Source of the DNA: a virus
Length of the DNA stretch: 63,530 bases
Direction: 5' to 3' (one strand)
Virus record (IMG/VR): IMGVR_UViG_3300009705_000016
Span: 1 to 63,530 of that record
Of this stretch, positions 25,306 to 63,247 are shown piece after piece (position 1 is the stretch's first letter; the number at the start of each line of letters is the position of its first letter). Below the pieces are notes generated by a model that saw nothing but the letters and a program-made list of their open reading frames with translations, did not search any database and had not been told where the DNA came from. The position numbers were made by a program, and so were the translations under genes.

Positions 25306-25515
25306 TTATCTATCAACTTTCTGAAACATGCCTTCTAATACTTGTTCTATAGCACCCATTACAGCATATTGGTCACCTCCCCAACTATCTTTATGTCGTT
25401 CAATTAAACGTTCAACAACATGTCTTAAGTCCTTTTCTAAACTATTCCACTTATCGTCGTCACTTACTTGCCAATAAGATTCTTCTCTTAATATTTTTTT
25501 AATTAGATGTTTCAT
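25306..25515 (-). CDS. Small protein with tag-like N-terminus, 69 aa
   Basis: The N-terminus MKHLIKKILREESYW is a shortened version of the basic amphipathic tag seen on several proteins of this phage, with a potential LxE processing site (LRE). The rest is a predicted helix (LEKDLRHVVERLIERHKDSW) ending at QKVDR. It has its own upstream TATTTAT motif 7 bases before the ATG and ends 24 bases before the gp25-like start. No known family was recognised. It may be a small internal virion protein; this is inferred only from the N-terminus. Confidence 0.6.
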   Translation of the reverse strand: MKHLIKKILREESYWQVSDDDKWNSLEKDLRHVVERLIERHKDSWGGDQYAVMGAIEQVLEGMFQKVDR

Positions 25516-48127: not shown

Positions 48128-48616
48128 TTAGTAAACTAATATACATCTATCTGGTCTTAGTGTTGCTGCTATATTTGCCATACCCTCATCACTATAAGAT
48201 AGGTCATTGAAGTTTACGTCTGTTAAGAAACATCCTTGTAGTACCCACTTTTCTACCACTACCCCTGTTGGGTCTAACATTTCTAAATCTATATTCTTTT
48301 TATATCCAGCAGCGTAACCCATTCTACCTGTTACTGATTCTGCGTGTAATCTAACCCATTCCATCAATGCTTGTGAAGCTGAAGGACCAATCGGGTCTCT
48401 AAACGTTACATTGATTGTACCCCAAGTAAATCTACCAGCTACATACGTTGATGTATTTAGGAATGGTATTTCTACTGAACCTATTGTAACTTGTGGTCTT
48501 GATGTACTTTCTACGTACCACTCATTAATCCCTAAAGAAGAGTCAAATCTCATTATAAACCTATTCTTTTTCTTTGGTTCATACGGTACGGGCATTTTCA
48601 TTAATAAATCGGCCAT
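48128..48616 (-). CDS. 19: Tail tube protein, gp19-like
   Basis: At 162 residues it matches T4 gp19 (163). It shows the tube fold pattern: KKKNRFIMRFDSSLGINEWY, SRPQVTIGSVEIPFLN, VAGRFTWGTINVTFRDPIGP, and WVLQGCFLTDVNFNDLSYSD near the end. It polymerises into the inner tube around the tape measure. It is a monocistronic unit with a TATTTAT motif about 35 bases upstream and its own terminator. Codon composition and A-rich leader are as in its neighbours. Confident. Confidence 0.9.
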   Translation of the reverse strand: MADLLMKMPVPYEPKKKNRFIMRFDSSLGINEWYVESTSRPQVTIGSVEIPFLNTSTYVAGRFTWGTINVTFRDPIGPSASQALMEWVRLHAESVTGRMGYAAGYKKNIDLEMLDPTGVVVEKWVLQGCFLTDVNFNDLSYSDEGMANIAATLRPDRCILVY

Positions 48617-48679: not shown

Positions 48680-49543
48680 TTAACTATCAATCTTAGATAC
48701 TATAATCTTATTTTTTTCTCCTTGTGATGTGTCATAAATAAAAAATTCCACACCAGGATATTCTATAGATAATTCTTTTTTGATAAAATCCATAACAGAT
48801 TCTATATTTTTTCTATCATCATCACTAAACCCAATACTTAATCTATCGTATTCTCCATCTGTTAATTTTTTAACTCCATTCACAACCTTTTCTACATAAT
48901 CTCTTAATGCTATTTTTTTACCTTCTTCTGGTCTATCAGCAGCAGCAGAATCCAAACCAAACTTATCTTTAAACTCTGAAGATGTAACTGGCGAATAATC
49001 ATTTTGTGATAAATAAAAATCTATTTTTTCTTCCATGTTCATGTCTTGGGTTGAGGGGTATACATTTTCTATACTGTTTAACATTTGTTTGACTTCGGAT
49101 GGGTTAAAGGTCATACCAATTACAGTTCGGACACCTTCTTTTATTGCGTGAGGTGGTGTACCCCTTGCGGTAATAATGGAGAATGGGTGTGCGTTTATTA
49201 AAGATTCTTTAAGTTTTTCGAAACTAGGTGCAAACTTTTTATCTTCTATTGCTTTTTTAACATCTGAAATAAATGTTTGTGGTTCTTCAAAATCCATAAA
49301 AGAATGGTCCGTTAATCTATATTCACTATCATTTCTTACGTCCGCAAAATCTTCTGTACTTACATTTGTGGGTACCCAATCTAAACCATCTTTTTTTTCC
49401 ATCTTAATTTCGGTAGGCATAAAAAGTATATTATCATCCCAATCAAAAGCATAACCACGTATTTTATCTGTGGTCATTACCTCACCTATTTCTTTAATTA
49501 ATTTGGTTAATTGTATTTCTGTTAGAATTAAACTTCTTTTCAT
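48680..49543 (-). CDS. Tagged HAD-like phosphatase, 287 aa
   Basis: Residues 1-22 (MKRSLILTEIQLTKLIKEIG) are a clear version of the shared basic amphipathic tag, with LTE at 7-9. The remainder is a HAD-type hydrolase: motif I YAFDWDDNILF, with the likely nucleophile D34 and acid D36; a motif II Thr in FSIITARGTP near residue 125; and an acidic GFSDDDRKN stretch near 245 that could serve as motif IV. The substrate is unknown. It is a single-gene unit between tube and tagged genes, with a TATTTAT motif 5 bases before its ATG. If the tag is a capsid-targeting sequence, this enzyme may be packaged in the virion. Confidence 0.75.
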   Translation of the reverse strand: MKRSLILTEIQLTKLIKEIGEVMTTDKIRGYAFDWDDNILFMPTEIKMEKKDGLDWVPTNVSTEDFADVRNDSEYRLTDHSFMDFEEPQTFISDVKKAIEDKKFAPSFEKLKESLINAHPFSIITARGTPPHAIKEGVRTVIGMTFNPSEVKQMLNSIENVYPSTQDMNMEEKIDFYLSQNDYSPVTSSEFKDKFGLDSAAADRPEEGKKIALRDYVEKVVNGVKKLTDGEYDRLSIGFSDDDRKNIESVMDFIKKELSIEYPGVEFFIYDTSQGEKNKIIVSKIDS

Positions 49544-49548
49544 ATACT

Positions 49549-49555
49549 ATAAATA
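49549..49555 (-). promoter_or_regulatory. TATTTAT promoter-like motif before the HAD gene
   Basis: Minus strand reads TTAATATTTATAGTATATG, only 5 bases between the heptamer and the ATG at 49543. The same TATTTATAGTATATG precedes the gene starting at 63247. Confidence 0.5.
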
Positions 49556-49569
49556 TTAAGTTGTTAAAT

Positions 49570-49598
49570 AAAAAAACCCCACATTTCTGTAGGGTTTT
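49570..49598 (-). terminator. Rho-independent terminator after the tagged small-protein unit
   Basis: On the minus strand AAAACCCTACA, a GAAA tetraloop and TGTGGGGTTTT form a hairpin with one mismatch, followed by Us. It lies 22 bases past the stop of the 63-aa gene. Confidence 0.8.
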
Positions 49599-49620
49599 AT
49601 TATATAGTAATATTACGTTA

Positions 49621-49812
49621 TTACCAGTGTCTCATTTTAATAGATTCTTCATATTCAACAAAACCTACAATTTTGTCTAATTTCTCGTTTATCTCAGCAA
49701 ATTGTTCGTCATAATTTTTAGAACTAGCACCAATAACCTCTTCTTCTTCTTTAATTATTGTTTTTTTAATTATGTTAATTAATTCACGTTCTGTTAGTCT
49801 TATTTTTTTCAT
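49621..49812 (-). CDS. Tagged small protein, 63 aa
   Basis: Residues 1-25 (MKKIRLTERELINIIKKTII, then KEEEE) are the shared tag almost alone, with LTE at 6-8 and IKE near 20. The rest (EQFAEINEKLDKIVGFVEYE) is a short amphipathic helix, possibly a coiled coil. At 63 residues there is space for only a tag plus a helix. It follows the S74-containing gene by 12 bases and is followed by a terminator. Possibly an internal core or processed peptide protein. Confidence 0.65.
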   Translation of the reverse strand: MKKIRLTERELINIIKKTIIKEEEEVIGASSKNYDEQFAEINEKLDKIVGFVEYEESIKMRHW

Positions 49813-49824
49813 AATAATTTTATA

Positions 49825-50748
49825 TTAACAAGGTAATGGTGTACCATCTGGTGGACATTCAGCAAACCAATTTGCAAATTTGAGCCATGTCCTTCTCCAC
49901 CATCCTTTTCCACCATCTTTTATTATCGGTGGTATAACTAACCTACCTGAAGATTCATACTGACTAACCATCATTTGTACCGCACCAATAATTTCCTGCA
50001 ATTCTGGAATCATTCCATGTAGTCCACCAAGTGATTGTCCGTCTTTACCTACAGATTCTGGTGTAAGGGTTTGCATAAAAGATGATGCTGAATTTAAAGA
50101 ACCCATTAATGGTACAAGTTGGCTCATCATTCTTGCGTCTTCTCCGGATGCTTTACCTTCATCTCTTCCATCTGTTTCCATTTGTTCATTACCTGCGGCC
50201 ATTGGGTCATTAGAACCACCACCTTGAGATTGTCCACCCATCCAACCATCTATATCCATATCTGGTAAGAATACTGTACCTTTTGTTAAATCAGGCATCT
50301 CCCATCGTCTTTCGTTTATAACCCTTCCAATAACTCTAGATAAATCTCTTTCAGATAGTCTAGTTTTTCTTGGGTTAACTCTTTCAAAATCAACATCTAA
50401 CATTCCATAGTCTACCTTTTTATAACCATTACTAGATACTTTTACTGCTCGTCTTGGTGCTTGTTCAGCAAGAACCCCTCTAAACGTTCCTTTACCGAAT
50501 CTAGTTTTATTTTTATACTCAAATTCATAAATTGGTATTCCTGATGGAGATTTACCAACTCGTCTTATATTTTTCTTTAGTCTTGAGTCTGAATCAAACC
50601 ATCCATGTATTGTATCAAGTACTTTGCCAATTGCGAGTAAATCAAGCACCCAAGATTTCCATCTCCACTCAAGTAATAATTGTGATTCAGAAATTGTACG
50701 AACTATTCTCGTTAAGTCTGATTCTTTTAATCTAATTGTTTTTGCCAT
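49825..50748 (-). CDS. Twice-tagged protein with S74-type autoprocessing domain, 307 aa
   Basis: Residues 1-22 (MAKTIRLKESDLTRIVRTIS) are a copy of the shared tag and residues about 126-148 (RKTRLSERDLSRVIGRVINE) a second one. Between them, residues about 51-124 match the peptidase S74 intramolecular chaperone domain: SDSRLKKNIRRVGKSPSG, IPIYEFEYKN, FRGVLAEQAP, then NGYKKVDYGMLDVDF. S53 and K58 have the i,i+5 spacing of the S74 catalytic dyad. S74 domains normally sit at the C-terminus of tail spikes and cut themselves off; here it is near the N-terminus. The remainder (about 150-307) is Gln/Gly/Met-rich, ending in ECPPDGTPLPC. Confidence 0.75.
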   Translation of the reverse strand: MAKTIRLKESDLTRIVRTISESQLLLEWRWKSWVLDLLAIGKVLDTIHGWFDSDSRLKKNIRRVGKSPSGIPIYEFEYKNKTRFGKGTFRGVLAEQAPRRAVKVSSNGYKKVDYGMLDVDFERVNPRKTRLSERDLSRVIGRVINERRWEMPDLTKGTVFLPDMDIDGWMGGQSQGGGSNDPMAAGNEQMETDGRDEGKASGEDARMMSQLVPLMGSLNSASSFMQTLTPESVGKDGQSLGGLHGMIPELQEIIGAVQMMVSQYESSGRLVIPPIIKDGGKGWWRRTWLKFANWFAECPPDGTPLPC

Positions 50749-50783
50749 TTTTAAAATTTTTTTATTTTATTGTTTGTTATTTT

Positions 50784-50790
50784 ATAAATA
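50784..50790 (-). promoter_or_regulatory. TATTTAT promoter-like motif before the S74/tag gene unit
   Basis: Minus strand reads TTTATATTTATAAAATAAC, about 35 bases before the ATG at 50748, in a 92-base gap. I see nothing else in that gap. Confidence 0.45.
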
Positions 50791-50840
50791 TAAAGTGCTT
50801 AATAAAAAGTAACCTATACTATATTATTCCTAAATTCTAT

Positions 50841-51074
50841 TTAATACCTGTCCCTGTCCCAAGGCCATCTAAAATCACAGCACCCCATACCAAATATACA
50901 ACAAAGCCACTTTAATTGTTGTGGGTCCGTATTTGGTGGAACAGTTACACCCATCCTATCACTTAAATCTGTAAGGTGTTCAGTTGCTTTATTACCTTCT
51001 CCTCTATCTTGTTCACTAACGACTCTACGTATAAGTCTAGTTAGGTCTTTTTCTGTTAATTTAATTTTTCTCAT
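50841..51074 (-). CDS. Tagged small Cys protein, 77 aa
   Basis: Residues 1-22 (MRKIKLTEKDLTRLIRRVVS) are the cleanest copy of the shared tag, with LTE at 6-8. The C-terminal 25 residues contain a CC-x(4)-CC motif (LKWLCCIFGMGCCDF) that is also present in the adjacent 412-residue protein (FFCCALRMKCCEG). The two genes overlap by 4 bases. The end, RWPWDRDRY, is aromatic and charged. Function unknown; the paired Cys motif suggests a metal site or disulphides. Confidence 0.65.
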   Translation of the reverse strand: MRKIKLTEKDLTRLIRRVVSEQDRGEGNKATEHLTDLSDRMGVTVPPNTDPQQLKWLCCIFGMGCCDFRWPWDRDRY

Positions 51075-52309
51075 ATTACACTTGGATTATATTTATTTCC
51101 TGCTTTATTTACTCTATTGAACCATTTTTTCATATCTTTTATGTCAGATTCAGTAATAGGGTTTGTAGTTTTTAATGTTCTTCTCTCAGTTGTTATATTC
51201 CCTTGAGTAGGTGGTGTTGAGTTACATGGTACTTCTGGACAAGACTTAGGACAACGTTTCCCAGGGGTAACACTATATGGTTTTTTACCTACACATTTAC
51301 AACACCTTTTCTTTTTAGGTGATGTTGTAGATGTACTACTAGAATCATCCTCTCCCATTTCTTGCTCTCTTTTTCTTCTACCACCATCTTTATCAATTCC
51401 AGCTTGTTTTACTTGTCTGATAAAATCTTTAAAACTTTTTGGTTTAGGGTGGTTTTCAAATACATCAGGATTTGCTACCATGAAGTCTTGAAATGCTTCT
51501 TCATTTTCTTCTGGTGGTCTAACCATCCACCAATCTCTACCACGACCATATTTAAACAATCCCCAAGCTGTTGTTAGTATTGAAAGCCATAAAACTTCAT
51601 TTATAGGTTGTCTACCACTTTGTTCTTCAAACATACCCCTGATTGTGTCTATTGGTGAACCCTCACAACATTTCATTCTCAATGCACAACAGAAAAAACC
51701 ACCTAGTATCCACTTACCTTGAGGTGTACCACTTGGTTTTGGAGGCATTGTACCCGACCTAAGATGTTTTGCACATAAACTTTCATTTCCACCTGCAGAT
51801 TTACAAGCTTTCATATTTTCCGGTGTGTCAAATTTACCTTTTTGTTTACCTCTCCCGGTATCTCTCTCCCTTAAGTCTTGTCTACCTCTCTTTTTCTCAC
51901 CTAAGGCTCTATCACGCAAACTAACAAACTCTCTATGACTTTTTGGTTTTGGTCCACCTTCAAATACATCAGGATTTGCTACCATGAAATCTTGAAATGC
52001 TTCTTCGGTTTCGTTTGGTGGTATAGTCATCCACCATCCCTCATCCTTTCCGTATTTGTAAATATCCCAAGCTAACAGAAGTGCCTTAATCCACCATTCC
52101 GTTAATAATTGTTTATTTTCATTTAGTTGTCTACCTTTTGGCTTTTGGACTCGTTTTATTCTATTAGCCACTGGATTAATCTTACTAATTAATCTTTGTA
52201 ATTGTTGTTCACTTACAACCATTTTTTGTTTTTTATTTTTAGTATAGGTTTTCCTATTACTTTTAGGTAACCCTATTTCCTCTGATAAAATTTGTTTTTT
52301 AAATTTCAT
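51071..52309 (-). CDS. Tagged protein with internal duplication and Cys motifs, 412 aa
   Basis: Residues 1-12 (MKFKKQILSEEI) and 29-45 (QKMVVSEQQLQRLISKI) resemble the shared tag in two pieces. A unit of about 60 residues occurs twice, at about 69-128 and 236-296, each with WDIYKYG or WGLFKYG, GWWM or DWWM, and the identical stretch EEAFQDFMVANPDVFE. In between lies a CC-x(4)-CC motif (FFCCALRMKCCEG). The C-terminal part is basic and Cys-rich (KKKRCCKCVGKKPY, then CPKSCPEVPC). It is co-transcribed with the sheath gene (9-base gap). No family recognised. Confidence 0.65.
   Translation of the reverse strand: MKFKKQILSEEIGLPKSNRKTYTKNKKQKMVVSEQQLQRLISKINPVANRIKRVQKPKGRQLNENKQLLTEWWIKALLLAWDIYKYGKDEGWWMTIPPNETEEAFQDFMVANPDVFEGGPKPKSHREFVSLRDRALGEKKRGRQDLRERDTGRGKQKGKFDTPENMKACKSAGGNESLCAKHLRSGTMPPKPSGTPQGKWILGGFFCCALRMKCCEGSPIDTIRGMFEEQSGRQPINEVLWLSILTTAWGLFKYGRGRDWWMVRPPEENEEAFQDFMVANPDVFENHPKPKSFKDFIRQVKQAGIDKDGGRRKREQEMGEDDSSSTSTTSPKKKRCCKCVGKKPYSVTPGKRCPKSCPEVPCNSTPPTQGNITTERRTLKTTNPITESDIKDMKKWFNRVNKAGNKYNPSVI
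51422..52105 (-). repeat. Internal protein-coding duplication (two ~60-residue units)
   Basis: Units lie at about 51926-52105 and 51422-51604. Within them, 46 bases at 51961-52006 and 51457-51502 are identical except one position, so the duplication is recent or under strong constraint. Confidence 0.8.
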
Positions 52310-52318
52310 ATCTGTCTA

Positions 52319-55300
52319 TTATATATCTTCAAATGAAGCTCCTGTAGGAGTTATTAGGAATTCAATAAATATGAATTCAAGTGCTCTTGTTGGTTTAATG
52401 TAAATCTTACCGTTCATCTCATTTCTATCGATTTCTTCTGGGTCGTCTGATAACACAACTCTAAAGTCTGTTAAACCTCTATCTCTTCTTATAGAGTCTA
52501 ATATAGGGTTAACTAGGTCTAAGAATTGTTGTCTTACCACATCATCATTTTGTTCAAATAATAATCTAACCGCAACTGCTGAAATCAGTTTTCTAGTTTG
52601 TAATAATAATCTTCTTACATTTATTCTATCTAACGCTGATTCTTTAACTTGTAACGTCTTATTACCAAAGATAATCGGGCCTACATCACTAAATGTAGCG
52701 ATTGGATTAAGTCTACCAACATATAATGTATCTCTATCGTCTAGAGTTAGTTTTGTTCTAGCTTTAATTGCGTTAACAATACCTCTAGTATATCCAGCCG
52801 ATGCGAACCATGGGAAAGCTATATTATCTGTTAATGCTAAATTTCTAGTAACCTCACCTGTTGGTGGGATATACAATTGTTTGTTCGTATTGTTATCTCT
52901 AACTAGAACCCATGGGTAATAAGTTGCTGTATAGTTAGAATCTATAAAACTGTCTTCCATATTATTAACAGCTTCTGTTGGACTTATTTTGTTACTAGCG
53001 TCTGTAGTTGAGTTGATAAATAGGTTATAATCTGGTGTTGTTGTAATATAAAGTGAATCAGCTCTCTCAGTTTCTACCATGTCTATAGCGTCGTTTACTA
53101 AAGCTAAATTATTTACATAATCCACACCTGGAGTCGCAAACACATTAATGTCTACAGCTTCTGGATTTTCAAATTTATGTATTGCTTGTCTATAAGCGTC
53201 ATAATCAGTATTAGATTCTGTTGTAGAAATCCTTTTAAAAGAACCTAGACCAGTAGCGTCTGTATAAGTTGAGTCGGCACATGCTCCGTATTTGTAACCT
53301 GTCATCCCCAGTCTATACCCATCTAGATTTGTTCTAGTTTTTCTATACTCATCCCATCCGTCAAAACCACCATAAGGTACTAACGTGAATTTTCTAGATT
53401 GTATCTTATAATAAGGGTCTGTTGTTTTAGTTGGTTCTGATTGGAACGAAGCGTCACCCACCATAAACATAGACTTACCACTTAATGTACTAGCTGTTTC
53501 TGTTAAATAAGAACCAGAACCTGCTATAACTACAGTAGCTCCAGAATCCATGTGGAATCCTTGTGTTAAGTTTGGCCAATCACTACCTGTTGTACTAGTA
53601 CAAACAGATGTTGGTGTTTTAAACCCTTTATACTCAAAGAAATCATAATCAATTGCTGCTCCATCACCTGTTGAGTATCCTAGGTAGTTTTTTCTAATAT
53701 TATCACCAGCTGAAATTGAAGAGTTGCTCATACCTCCCGTAGAATTATAGTATGGGTCAAATATTGTTTCACCTGGGGTGAAATATTTAGTTTTCCATTT
53801 TGGGTAAGGGTTTACCGTACTACTACAAGATTCTCTAAATTTATAACCCTCAAATCCTGCTGGTAAAGCGTCCTTTAAGTCACCATCGACAACCGCATCT
53901 GCTAATTCTAACATTGTATATGTAGATTTTAACTCATATTCACCATCTGAAGTACCAATTTTTCTAGCTATAAAGTTTGGTGCTGTCGGGTCTAGTGTAC
54001 ATCTTGTGTATTTTTCAAAAACTATAGGGTTAGCATCTGTATCGTAGAAATCTCTAATAACCACATCAAACTCAACTCTTTCAAAAGAAATGTTTGTTAA
54101 TGATATTTTATATTCTCTATTACCTGATGAACCGTCTGATATAGATATAAATCTAAATAATCTAGAAACTTCATTACCTCGTAATTCCGAAACAACATAT
54201 GGTGTTCTAGGTGTTTGCCATTCATTCATGTACCAACCTAAAGATGTTCTATTAGTATTATTCCATCTTGCCGCTGGAAGATAACATACACAACAATTTA
54301 TTCCTCTAATTTTTTGTCTTCTATATAAATATTTTAATAAGTTAGGGTAAATTTCTTCTACAAAAATAGGAATTTCATTACTATCTCTATCAAATACTTT
54401 TCTTCCCAACACTCTTGATAAATAATTTTTCTTACTACTATCTAAAGATGTTGTAAATTTAGATACAACACCATCGTCAGTTTTTGCTGAAATTCCGAAG
54501 TCAGCAAATGGGTCTCTTAATATGTCTTCATAAGTCCCGTCACAATTAAAGTTTACGTCACCTTGTTTGTAACCGTCTCCTGTACTTGCACTAATTTTAT
54601 ATACTGGTCCACCAGTTGTTAATGTACTTTCACCTCTGGACCTTAAAGTTGCGATTGTCATATTGTGGTATTCCGTATCCGCACTTACACAGTCGTACGT
54701 TGAGTAACAACCACTTAATGTCATAGCTAAATAAGTTACCGCTGAACAACTTCCAGTATAGAATGTCGTAAAGGCTGAAACAGAGTTACCGGTAAAGAAC
54801 CAACTATTAGCTGGGTCTGCACTTATACTGTTATTCACTACCATACCCGCTGTTACAGCCGCTGAACCACCGTACACCAGACTATTGATAAACTTGACAT
54901 TATCACCTGTCCCACCTGGTATTAAACCAGTATTGGAGAATCCACTTATAGTTACCTGTACGGCCGTATAAGATGGTGAACTACCACCAATAGATGTTCC
55001 TGCACAACTTTGTAATTGATAGTCGGTTACCCCTCCTGAATATTGTACCGCGTTAAATGTTTCTACAGCTGCAGATAATGTACTACCTGTACCATTTGAC
55101 CCCACAAAAGGGTAAACAGTAGGTTTATATGCTGATAAACCCAACATACCAGCCCCCACATCACTACCCCAAACTTGACCTCCCGAATAAGAGAAGTAAT
55201 TATTCACACTAAAACCACCAGGTACATTGTTACCAGCGTTAGTATCTGCACCAAAGAACGACCATTCACCCCATGAGGTTGCCGATGTTGATGCTGTATA

Positions 55301-60153: not shown

Positions 60154-61800
60154 ATGAGTCTTACTAAAAACAATATGAGTTTGTTGCCTTTGTTGAGTGA
60201 TGTTATTTCAAGAACAATCAAAGAACAGGAGGAAATCCCATCAGACACTTTGATAAATATGCAGAGTAATGTTGGTCCTGATTTCAAAGGAACGTTGACT
60301 TACTGTAGTTTTTTAGAATACTGGAAAAACAGATATGATGAAAAATATAACGCAAACAAAGGGTCTAGTTACTCCCAACCAGTAAAGGACGCTTTTGAAA
60401 AACATAAAACTTCAAAAATAACATTAAGAATTCTTAATACGGTGTCTTATTTAGAAAGTTTGGGTAACGTAAAAGCTGATAACGGTAGATGTTATGGTCT
60501 ATTTCAATACTGTAGAGAATATTTTTCTGATTATGGTATAAACAGTAAGTCCGACGCACAAAACGCTGACATAGCTACTAGACAATTTGTAAAACACGCT
60601 ACAATACTAGGTAATACATTATCTGGTAATCTTGGTTTGGATGTTTTCTCTGCAGAAAATCAATGGTTGTTATACTTGAGTTGGCAACAAGGTAGAGCTG
60701 GTACTGTAAAAATATATAAAGGTTGTGATGATGTGGAAACTTTTACGGGGGATGAATTATATGATACTACTCCAGAAATAATAGGCCCTACAACTGCTGA
60801 TGATATAATGTTAGGTAAAGCTGTACTTAAAAAGGGAGACTCTAGTCAGTTAGTTACGATGATACAAAGAATGTTATTATACGATTATGAAATAGACTTG
60901 GGTGAGGATGGTGTAGATGGGATTTTCTTAGTTGATACTCATAACGCTGTTTTGGAGTTTCAAAAAAAGTTTGATTTGAAACCAGATGGTGTTATTGGTC
61001 CTTGTACTTTTGATACTCTATCAGAAGGAAGTGTAAGATATTGTTGTAAGAGTGATGCGTGTAAAAAAGATGAATGTAAGGATTCTAACTGGTGTACATG
61101 GCAAAGTACTTTTAAAAGAAAAAAGACAACTAAAGATAAGACTGATAAAGAATCTGAAGTAGATGTAGAGAATGTAACCCCTAGTAAAGGATTACCTGGT
61201 AATTTTGCTGAAATACCTGGTGGTCAGGGTAATTTTAGAAGTGAACAACCTTCCCTTAGAGAGTTTGCTAAACTATTTGAAGAATACCCTGATATTGAGC
61301 GTGTTGTTAGAATGAACGGTAATAAAGATAGTGGTGGACTTAGTATGGAAAGTGAAAAAAAATATGTAGAATCTACAGGTAGAGAGTATATTTGGTTTAA
61401 CGCTCATAATCCATGGAGTGCTAAAAATTCGTACACCCTAGAAGATACACCTGGTTATACTGGAGCTGTAAAATTAGGTTTAGACGAACTTAATCAAGGT
61501 AATACTTTCATACATTGTACCCATGGTGCTGATAGAACTGGTTTTATTGTAGCTGCATATATAAAAGAAAGGTTGGGTTGGGATAATGAAAGATTGTGGG
61601 AGTACACAGTTGGGTTTAATAGTTGGGATGGTGGATATGTAGGTTGTTGTACTAACGCACACAGGTCAGGTAAGTTGATTTGTAATGGTACTGCCTTTGC
61701 TTATTACTTAGCTTCATTTTACCCTATACCAGAGTGGTGTGCAGCTAAAGAAGAAAGAATGAGTTGTAAGATTTGTAAAAATTTGGAAGGTAATGGATGA
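60154..61800 (+). CDS. Tagged lysozyme / peptidoglycan-binding / tyrosine-phosphatase fusion, 548 aa
   Basis: Residues 8-27 (MSLLPLLSDVISRTIKEQEE) resemble the shared tag, with IKE as a possible cleavage site. Residues about 45-200 are lysozyme-like: SYLESLGNVKADNGRCYGLF, with E101 followed by a GLFQ motif as in transglycosylase/lysozyme families. Residues about 222-290 form a PG_binding_1 domain (LKKGDSSQLVTMIQRMLLYD, then DGVDGIFLVDTHNAVLEFQK and PDGVIGPCTFDTL). After a basic linker comes a tyrosine/dual-specificity phosphatase domain at about 345-535, with C455 and R461 in HCTHGADRTG and a fitting upstream strand and helix. The combination suggests a wall-penetrating, then signalling-active, virion protein. 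A TATTTAT motif lies 17 bases upstream. Confidence 0.8.
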   Translation: MSLTKNNMSLLPLLSDVISRTIKEQEEIPSDTLINMQSNVGPDFKGTLTYCSFLEYWKNRYDEKYNANKGSSYSQPVKDAFEKHKTSKITLRILNTVSYLESLGNVKADNGRCYGLFQYCREYFSDYGINSKSDAQNADIATRQFVKHATILGNTLSGNLGLDVFSAENQWLLYLSWQQGRAGTVKIYKGCDDVETFTGDELYDTTPEIIGPTTADDIMLGKAVLKKGDSSQLVTMIQRMLLYDYEIDLGEDGVDGIFLVDTHNAVLEFQKKFDLKPDGVIGPCTFDTLSEGSVRYCCKSDACKKDECKDSNWCTWQSTFKRKKTTKDKTDKESEVDVENVTPSKGLPGNFAEIPGGQGNFRSEQPSLREFAKLFEEYPDIERVVRMNGNKDSGGLSMESEKKYVESTGREYIWFNAHNPWSAKNSYTLEDTPGYTGAVKLGLDELNQGNTFIHCTHGADRTGFIVAAYIKERLGWDNERLWEYTVGFNSWDGGYVGCCTNAHRSGKLICNGTAFAYYLASFYPIPEWCAAKEERMSCKICKNLEGNG

Positions 61801-62263
61801 TTTTGAGAGACTTATGGACGATTTAGACCCTACGCAGGGTGGACCTCTCATAACATTGAGTAGTCCTGAGAGACACGATGTGGCACGTTTTATAGAACAG
61901 CTTAGGGTGTGGGGTAAGTATAATACAGTAGTAACGGATTTAAGTCCGTTTTTAACTGACTCTAAGACAGTTATAGAAGGAGAACTAGCTCATGAGATAT
62001 TATTGTACGCTAAAGAAACTGGGGAATTTCCTGTTAACATGTCAGAGTTTATGGAAAACCAACCAGAACCATTACAATATATTTGGGAAAATTCTCAAAA
62101 AATGAGAGATTTAATGACTAGAGCTACTTTAAAGTTTTTAGAATCTCAAAACTTACCAATGGATGATAAAACTATTAATGATGCTTTTAAAATGTTAGCT
62201 CAAAAAATTTATAGAAGTATTTTAACTGGCCCTTATTTAGAAAGAATTCAATCAAAAAGATAA
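61793..62263 (+). CDS. Unknown acidic helical protein, 156 aa
   Basis: This 156-residue protein is mostly helical (RHDVARFIEQLRVWGKYNTV, NSQKMRDLMTRATLKFLESQ) with no recognised motif. Its ATG overlaps the end of the lysozyme-phosphatase gene by 8 bases, so translation is coupled and a joint function is plausible, perhaps a chaperone or virion partner. At its 3' end it overlaps the convergent tagged gene by 12 bases; no terminator hairpin is visible there. Confidence 0.65.
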   Translation: MDDFERLMDDLDPTQGGPLITLSSPERHDVARFIEQLRVWGKYNTVVTDLSPFLTDSKTVIEGELAHEILLYAKETGEFPVNMSEFMENQPEPLQYIWENSQKMRDLMTRATLKFLESQNLPMDDKTINDAFKMLAQKIYRSILTGPYLERIQSKR

Positions 62264-63247
62264 AGCTGGAAAACTATTTTTAGATATCTCTGGAAAATTA
62301 GATACTACATTATTTTTTAACCAAGTACCCCAATCACCATAAACCTGATTATTCCAACTCCAGAAATTTTTATAATCAATAGGACCACTAACTGGTTTTG
62401 CCTCACCTTCTGTAAAAGGTTTATTTTCTCTCATGGATTGGTATAGTTTATCTGTGTTTTTATAAAGGACCATCATTAGTGGTAAATTTAGCCCATCCAT
62501 TTCCATTTTCGACAATAAAGTACCAGTACCTAAAGATAAAGGTATTAAGTATGATAGGTTTGATGGTTTTATATTAAACTGTCTTAACTTTTGTTTTACT
62601 TTTGGTGATTGTGTTTCTAATTGTTTTGTTAGATTTTTCTTAACAATGTTTATGTATTTTTTAGACTGTATTTTACTTATGTTAGTTATTTTTGAATCGT
62701 CATCATATTTGGTTTTTACACTCATTTCTGGTGTTTGGTCTACTGGTTGTGTTTGGTCTACTGGTTGTGTTTGAGTTTCGCTATCTGATTGTGTTTGAGT
62801 TTCGCTATCTGATTGTGGTCTAACTTCTGGCCTCATAATAACTGGTCTTTCAGTAGTACTTGTAGATTGTGGTCTGGGTGTCGTTGGCCTAGTTGTTGTT
62901 GGTCTGGTTGGTCTTGGAGCTCTTTCCCCTGGACATGTTGAAGCTTGAATACATGATTCTTGTTCTTGGTAAAAGGGGAACCTAAAACGTGTAACAGTCT
63001 CAATGTCTCTAGCGTCAAGTTTCTTACACCCAGGATGTTGTACTGGGTCTATACACGACCAATACCCTATTCTTGGTCTTTCTTCATCTATTGGTCTTTC
63101 TTCTTCATCTCTTGGCCTTTCTTCGTCTCTTGGGCTTTCTTCGTCTCTTGGGCTTTCTTCGTCTCTTGGACTTTCTTCTTCATCATTAGACCTGTCTTCT
63201 GTAGCCTCTTTTAATATAACTTTATATATAATATCTATTAATTTCAT
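62252..63247 (-). CDS. Tagged repeat-rich protein, 331 aa
   Basis: The N-terminus (MKLIDIIYKVILKEATEDR) is a short tag-like helix with LKE. Residues about 20-60 are tandem acidic-basic units (ESPRDE repeated three times, then variants). A Cys-bearing segment (WSCIDPVQHPGCKKLD) precedes a Pro/Arg/Thr linker (RPTTTRPTTPRP) and two more repeat types (SDSETQTQ twice, PVDQTQ twice). The C-terminal 150 residues look folded and basic (KKYINIVKKNLTKQLETQ), ending in FPEISKNSFPALSF. The start is supported by a TATTTAT motif 5 bases before the ATG. The repeats suggest a disordered, extended protein. Confidence 0.65.
   Translation of the reverse strand: MKLIDIIYKVILKEATEDRSNDEEESPRDEESPRDEESPRDEERPRDEEERPIDEERPRIGYWSCIDPVQHPGCKKLDARDIETVTRFRFPFYQEQESCIQASTCPGERAPRPTRPTTTRPTTPRPQSTSTTERPVIMRPEVRPQSDSETQTQSDSETQTQPVDQTQPVDQTPEMSVKTKYDDDSKITNISKIQSKKYINIVKKNLTKQLETQSPKVKQKLRQFNIKPSNLSYLIPLSLGTGTLLSKMEMDGLNLPLMMVLYKNTDKLYQSMRENKPFTEGEAKPVSGPIDYKNFWSWNNQVYGDWGTWLKNNVVSNFPEISKNSFPALSF
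62733..62816 (-). repeat. In-frame tandem repeats (2 x 18 and 2 x 24 bases)
   Basis: Two 18-base units at 62733-62750 and 62751-62768 encode PVDQTQ-type hexamers. Two 24-base units at 62769-62792 and 62793-62816 encode SDSETQTQ-type octamers. All lengths are multiples of three, so they are protein-level repeats. Confidence 0.85.
63117..63170 (-). repeat. In-frame 18-base tandem repeat, three copies
   Basis: Three 18-base units at 63117-63134, 63135-63152 and 63153-63170 encode ESPRDE-type hexamers; degenerate copies extend toward 63085. Only one base differs in the third copy. Confidence 0.85.

Follow-up and report, generated by a model that had tools for sequence, protein, structure and literature searches.

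Why should several adjacent phage genes, coding for otherwise dissimilar proteins, open with the same peptide? The question is raised by a 63.5-kb virus record (63,530 nucleotides, IMGVR_UViG_3300009705_000016), a fragment whose whole length is called the window below. An earlier note on this DNA had proposed that such an N-terminal peptide targets proteins to the capsid and is processed there, as in T4, on a modular set of packaged proteins of a Bacteroidota phage. At the sequence level this proposal agrees with the N-terminal position of the peptide, the unrelated bodies behind it, its L/I-x-E ending, its near-absence from cells and the co-occurrence of gp21 and gp23 genes. We consider it probable that the peptide (the tag) is a capsid-targeting propeptide cut by a gp21-like protease.

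The window carries T4-type genes for sheath, tube, gp6- and gp25-like wedge subunits, a UvsX-like recombinase, SSB and a DnaB-type helicase. The gp19-like tail tube protein (48128..48616, minus strand; PHROG_4542, E=5e-32), which has at least 599 relatives in IMG/VR, places the phage among the T4-like myoviruses, and the tail sheath gene stands at 52319 in the window gene list. No gp21, gp22 or gp23 gene, and no other head gene, was found in the 63.5-kb fragment; five longer relatives of the window contain both a gp21-type protease (Peptidase_S77) and gp23. The host is likely, on indirect grounds, a member of the Bacteroidota; an apparent gene for a TonB-dependent-receptor-like outer membrane protein, recognized by reading the sequence near the head genes of a phage contig (G012:37802-40585), suggests such a host.

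Tagged genes of the window

The tag was scored with a position-specific model trained on relatives and containing zero window sequence, with a test floor of p=1e-4; for shorter leaders, a half-tag model consisting of the second half of the tag was used. All the open reading frames and N-termini named in the earlier note were found, with coordinates and strands unchanged. Four adjacent genes on the minus strand (starts 49543, 49812, 50748 and 51074) open with the same peptide, each at p ≤ 1e-4. It is located at 49481..49543 in the HAD-like protein of gene 48680-49543 (MKRSLILTEIQLTKLIKEIGE, followed by V), at 49747..49812 in the 63-aa protein of gene 49621-49812 (MKKIRLTERELINIIKKTIIKE, followed by E), at 50686..50748 in the S74-domain protein of gene 49825-50748 (MAKTIRLKESDLTRIVRTISE, followed by S), and at 51012..51074 in the 77-aa Cys/Trp-rich protein of gene 50841-51074 (MRKIKLTEKDLTRLIRRVVSE, followed by Q), which gave the top score in the window. 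The body of the S74-domain protein matches PHROGs of virion structural and DNA ejection proteins, and its AlphaFold model (pLDDT 45) was too poor for use. The same gene contains a second, internal tag 3' of the S74 segment (50311..50370, minus strand; RKTRLSERDLSRVIGRVINE, followed by R; p=0.0002), and cleavage there would split a polyprotein.

Weaker forms had also been noticed at 25515, 60154 and 63247, and the half-tag model bears them out. The leader of gene 25306-25515 (25483..25515, minus strand) is MKHLIKKILRE followed by E (p=0.0036), a form that recurs as MKDLIKKILKE before E three times in the related record G012 and as MKNIIKKILRE before E in G007. That of gene 62252-63247 (63206..63247, minus strand) is MKLIDIIYKVILKE followed by A (p=0.0006) and is retained in a homologue in G001; 3' of the leader this gene encodes an acidic tandem repeat (DEExPR), and a similar repeat is seen in the G001 homologue. 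The third short form, MSLTKNNMSLLPLLSDVISRTIKE followed by Q (60154..60225, plus strand; p=0.0001), belongs to the peptidoglycan-binding/phosphatase gene 60154-61800, in which the short leader, a peptidoglycan-binding segment and a phosphatase-like HCxxGxxRT motif succeed one another in a single protein.

Gene 51071-52309 is organized differently. It begins with a T4-like 10-residue leader, MKFKKQILSE followed by E (52280..52309, minus strand), which by eye resembles the T4 leader; the 22-residue tag showed no such resemblance in the same unaligned comparison. A tag-like helix, QKMVVSEQQLQRLISK, is found at 52181..52228 (minus strand) within a 45-aa module and is weak when scored alone (p=0.018), and related segments reach p=0.0002-0.01, the lower value being that of ILTESQLERLI. 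In several relatives these first 45 residues exist by themselves as a mini-protein, such as MEFKKKNLNE followed by ALEIKSTGKKTFSEKPQNIVVSEEQLERLITKVSKEK, and in others they are fused to differing bodies; residues 8-10 of the module are [LI]-x-E in most relatives, two of them having Asp or Lys at position 10 instead. In the window, the body of the 52309 protein contains a Trp-rich domain present twice, each copy with LNE/LLTE or INE ahead of it, a pattern that would be expected for a processed polyprotein.

The count of at least eight tagged proteins made in the earlier note thus depends on the short forms being included; on a strict count, four proteins are tagged, one of them with an additional internal copy, three have a short form and one has a leader of another kind. 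As for the six copies described as clear, five stand (four at p ≤ 1e-4 and the internal one at p=0.0002), and the sixth, that of 52309, is the weak one.

Anatomy of the tag and its predicted cleavage site

The consensus of the tag is MKK(I/V)IRLTESDLxRIVKRVIxE, about 22 aa in length (20-22 residues). Conservation amounts to approximately 3-4 bits up to the terminal [ILV]-x-E, of which the x is variable, and drops to 1.4 bits immediately after it and then to 0.4-0.7 bits. Of 162 non-redundant tags, 78% have the LxE end at +13 past the core E and 91% have it within +11 to +18, as compared with about 1-4% at most other downstream offsets. The likely cut is after the [ILV]-x-E of residues 20-22, where conservation ends. 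The inner LTE also matches L/I-x-E, but LTESD appears to fit a helix N-cap, which makes cleavage at the inner motif improbable, though conceivable as a second cut. The prohead protease cleavage at LxE/IxE put forward previously is consequently retained for the signature that ends the tag, with a cut at the inner LTE being less likely than one at the terminal IxE. The residue after the final E is mostly Q, N, S or D, and after the corresponding gp23 site it is mostly A; this difference and the tagged families that have no terminal LxE (see below) are the chief discrepancies of the propeptide reading.

The HAD-like gene offers a view of one leader across many relatives. Located directly upstream of the tail tube gene (48680-49543 in the window; loci L003-L081), it is seen in this position in 61 relatives, with an invariant FDWDDN, and the family is characterized by invariant DWDDN, T125, K209 and SDDD. 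HAD chains are common among its top structural matches (Z<8); no Pfam model matches the window copy, and a Foldseek search with its model gave no confident match. In the AlphaFold model, residues 9-22 form a separate helix of low confidence that is followed by a linker, and the well-folded domain starts at about residue 28. The leaders of the orthologues, of 18-39 residues, are highly divergent in sequence, ranging from the 21-residue tag in the clade of the window to forms as short as MRKKLTE followed by G in other clades; nevertheless, 60 of the 61 keep an [LIVM]-x-E in the leader, against 39 expected from shuffles, a comparison between orthologues that are mutually related.

Copies of the tag at C-termini were found in four records (G005, G008, G015 and G016). 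Two small proteins, G005:70722-71060 and G016:127606-128337, have tag-like segments at both termini, ending in V/I-x-E or L-x-E. Some tagged families have no terminal LxE, as exemplified by MKYLITESQIDNxIFKYLNNQDF; this tag-like helix belongs to a multi-copy family of about 105 aa found at L198:7736-10114, with relatives in L195, L247 and G016.

The families without a terminal LxE, together with the strong amphipathicity of the tag helix (moment 0.66 vs 0.33 for shuffled sequences), are what one would expect of an uncut docking helix that stays on the protein and tethers accessory proteins to the scaffold core, the replication complex or a membrane. We judge this explanation unlikely, because conservation ends exactly past [ILV]-x-E with a variable middle residue, the same ending is found in sequence-unrelated short forms and in HAD orthologues with differing leaders, and the C-terminal and internal copies likewise end in V/I-x-E.

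Distribution, head genes and proposed cargo in related phages

The search beyond the window was performed on 2,805 ORFs from long contigs unselected for the tag and from 80 loci matched by an MKK..IRLTESDL DNA pattern; as selection by this pattern favours the MKK..IRLTESDL form, the unselected contigs were counted separately. The first ATG giving the longest ORF was taken as the start, so that some starts are misplaced. The strict motif was N-terminal in 177 of its 192 occurrences in this set, with 0.45 expected from shuffled N-termini, and 30 of the 177 N-terminal matches come from the unselected contigs. Among the other matches, several result from wrongly called starts, and a few are genuine copies at internal or C-terminal positions.

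The DNA pattern of the tag was present in at least 120 viral stretches of IMG/VR, and a profile search, a check of the kind suggested in the earlier note, found tags in 26 of 27 records, with a maximum of 18 in one record. Bacterial and archaeal genomes (GTDB, 257 Gb) contained the pattern twice, in a 3-kb phage-like contig and in one gene of a Prevotella MAG; on this comparison the tag is almost wholly viral. In the Prevotella gene (L350:6395-6958, contig JAEEVW010000005.1) the viral tag MKKLIRLTESDLHKIIKESMKRILAE is combined with a match to ADP-ribosyltransferase that stays below threshold; the gene is flanked by two ORFs resembling halves of one host gene, in host-like surroundings. Different leaders with the same kind of ending are found in the cultured Flavobacterium phage immuto (MKKSQLRQIIKE followed by A, and MKKQILSEQFRRMQKLAGIITE followed by S twice), whose gp23 has KQIVSE followed by A. 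A tblastn search of an annotated phage collection with the 27-aa tag consensus gave no match, the query being too short to indicate absence. A corpus of 5.4 million papers contained neither RLTESDL nor the other exact tag strings, and the papers found on capsid targeting deal only with T4, P1, SPN3US and similar phages.

The gp21-like prohead protease, for which the earlier note had suggested looking elsewhere in the genome, is encoded not only in the five longer relatives of the window: of 25 long records that bear tags, 20 have Peptidase_S77 and 19 have gp23; the records without one or the other may be fragments. In 20 gp23 sequences, the pro-region contains, shortly before the conserved shell domain, an invariant LINE with A, S or Q as the next residue, and close to the N-terminus of gp22 stands LVKE before S, or a similar form. 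The terminal LxE is all that the tag has in common with gp22 and gp23. An origin of the tag as a copy of the N-terminal helix of the gp22 scaffold was considered and rejected, as the half-tag model gave p=0.04-0.75 for gp22 and 0.11-0.14 for gp23.

Since the window genes 48680-51074 sit between the tail tube (48128) and the sheath (52319), the tag could be thought to route proteins to the tail or baseplate instead of the head. This is improbable given that the tagged genes of relatives are distributed genome-wide (in G016, for example, at 28-40 kb, 75-81 kb, 130 kb and 316 kb), and that the protease fitting the terminal LxE is the prohead protease.

The bodies behind the tag are diverse, as the earlier note had stated for the window: the 162 non-redundant tagged proteins fall into 132 body clusters, 112 of them singletons. 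Among 108 tagged proteins that were scanned, the recognisable domains were thioredoxin, peptidoglycan-binding/endolysin, S74 with DNA-ejection relatives, hydrolase and OmpA, and no replication, nucleotide or sugar-metabolism families were found; the tag was thus not seen on enzymes such as a polymerase, the case that had been named as speaking against a packaging role. When 103 untagged ORFs of matched length were taken from the same loci, they matched 87 PHROGs, including methyltransferases, a glycosyltransferase, a tRNA nucleotidyltransferase and ferredoxin. Because most tagged bodies match nothing, the depletion of such families among them is suggestive only.

Tandem tagged genes do occur. 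At one locus (L245:2434-6798) six genes in a row share almost the same leader, MKIIINERQLR(T/Q)IIES, although their bodies are related only in part, and such paralogues would agree with one old family whose bodies diverged and whose N-terminus is a relic with no shared role. We give this possibility little credence: distinct domains (S74, thioredoxin, peptidoglycan-binding, hydrolase) in 132 clusters follow the same tag, the 45-aa module can stand alone or be joined to various bodies, depending on the relative, and a 22-residue remnant is not expected to be sharper than the bodies. Finally, an RNA- or DNA-level element for translation control or recombination, to which the position at gene starts might point, is very improbable and was rejected on the synonymous variation, since the third codon positions are free to vary (Thr ACA/ACT/ACC/ACG, Leu TTA/CTT/CTA/TTG), so that selection acts on the peptide, and in-frame copies are found within proteins and at their C-terminal ends as well.

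A proposed head-loading peptide

For the capsid-targeting propeptide, which we prefer, the following steps can be proposed. The N-terminal amphipathic helix of 20-22 residues (IRLTESDLxRIVKRVIxE) would direct unrelated cargo into the scaffold core of the prohead, where the gp21-like (Peptidase_S77) protease would cut after the terminal [ILV]-x-E; the freed cargo would then stay inside the head alongside the DNA, to be ejected, at least in part, into the host. The short forms, such as MKDLIKKILKE before E, T4-like 10-mers such as MKFKKQILSE before E, and the internal and C-terminal copies would be variants for the same machinery. We infer core binding, cleavage, packaging and ejection of the tagged proteins from sequence comparisons.

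In T4, the internal proteins have N-terminal leaders of 10-19 residues that target the core and are removed after L/I-x-E by gp21, and Alt is processed at its C-terminus too, propeptides at both ends being known for Alt and gp21 (PMC9026906). The tag resembles the leaders of IPI-IPIII in being a short N-terminal leader common to unrelated proteins and, as predicted here from sequence, in its L/I-x-E end. In contrast to those leaders, which are found on a handful of proteins, it is a capped amphipathic helix of 20-22 residues, present on up to 18 proteins per record and on more than 130 body types. The two small proteins with tag-like segments at both ends recall the two-ended propeptides of Alt and gp21; unlike Alt, however, none of the tagged proteins of the window is an ADP-ribosyltransferase, and the sub-threshold match mentioned above, in the Prevotella MAG gene, is the sole one. 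In the giant phage SPN3US many head proteins are likewise matured by the prohead protease, but the abstracts of the two reports on it (PMC7411985, PMC10052503) do not describe a shared portable peptide.

We lean, by a narrow measure, towards a general head-loading system in which a large uncultured T4-like clade, probably living on Bacteroidota, would use one portable cleavable peptide for at most about 18 cargo proteins per record. In large uncultured phages, the majority of genes are without an assigned function. If the tag is a packaging signal, its presence would predict virion carriage, and probably delivery at infection, for proteins of unknown fold, and would narrow the many unknowns down to a few candidate injected effectors. 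Phage heads could also be loaded with proteins by means of this natural cleavable tag, which is longer than the T4 leader and better defined, and the 45-residue module, alone or fused to varied cargo, would show a route by which new cargo is recruited. Should the head-loading system be real, the tag alone would mark hundreds of unknown proteins as packaged and injected early effectors, for example in anti-defence or takeover.
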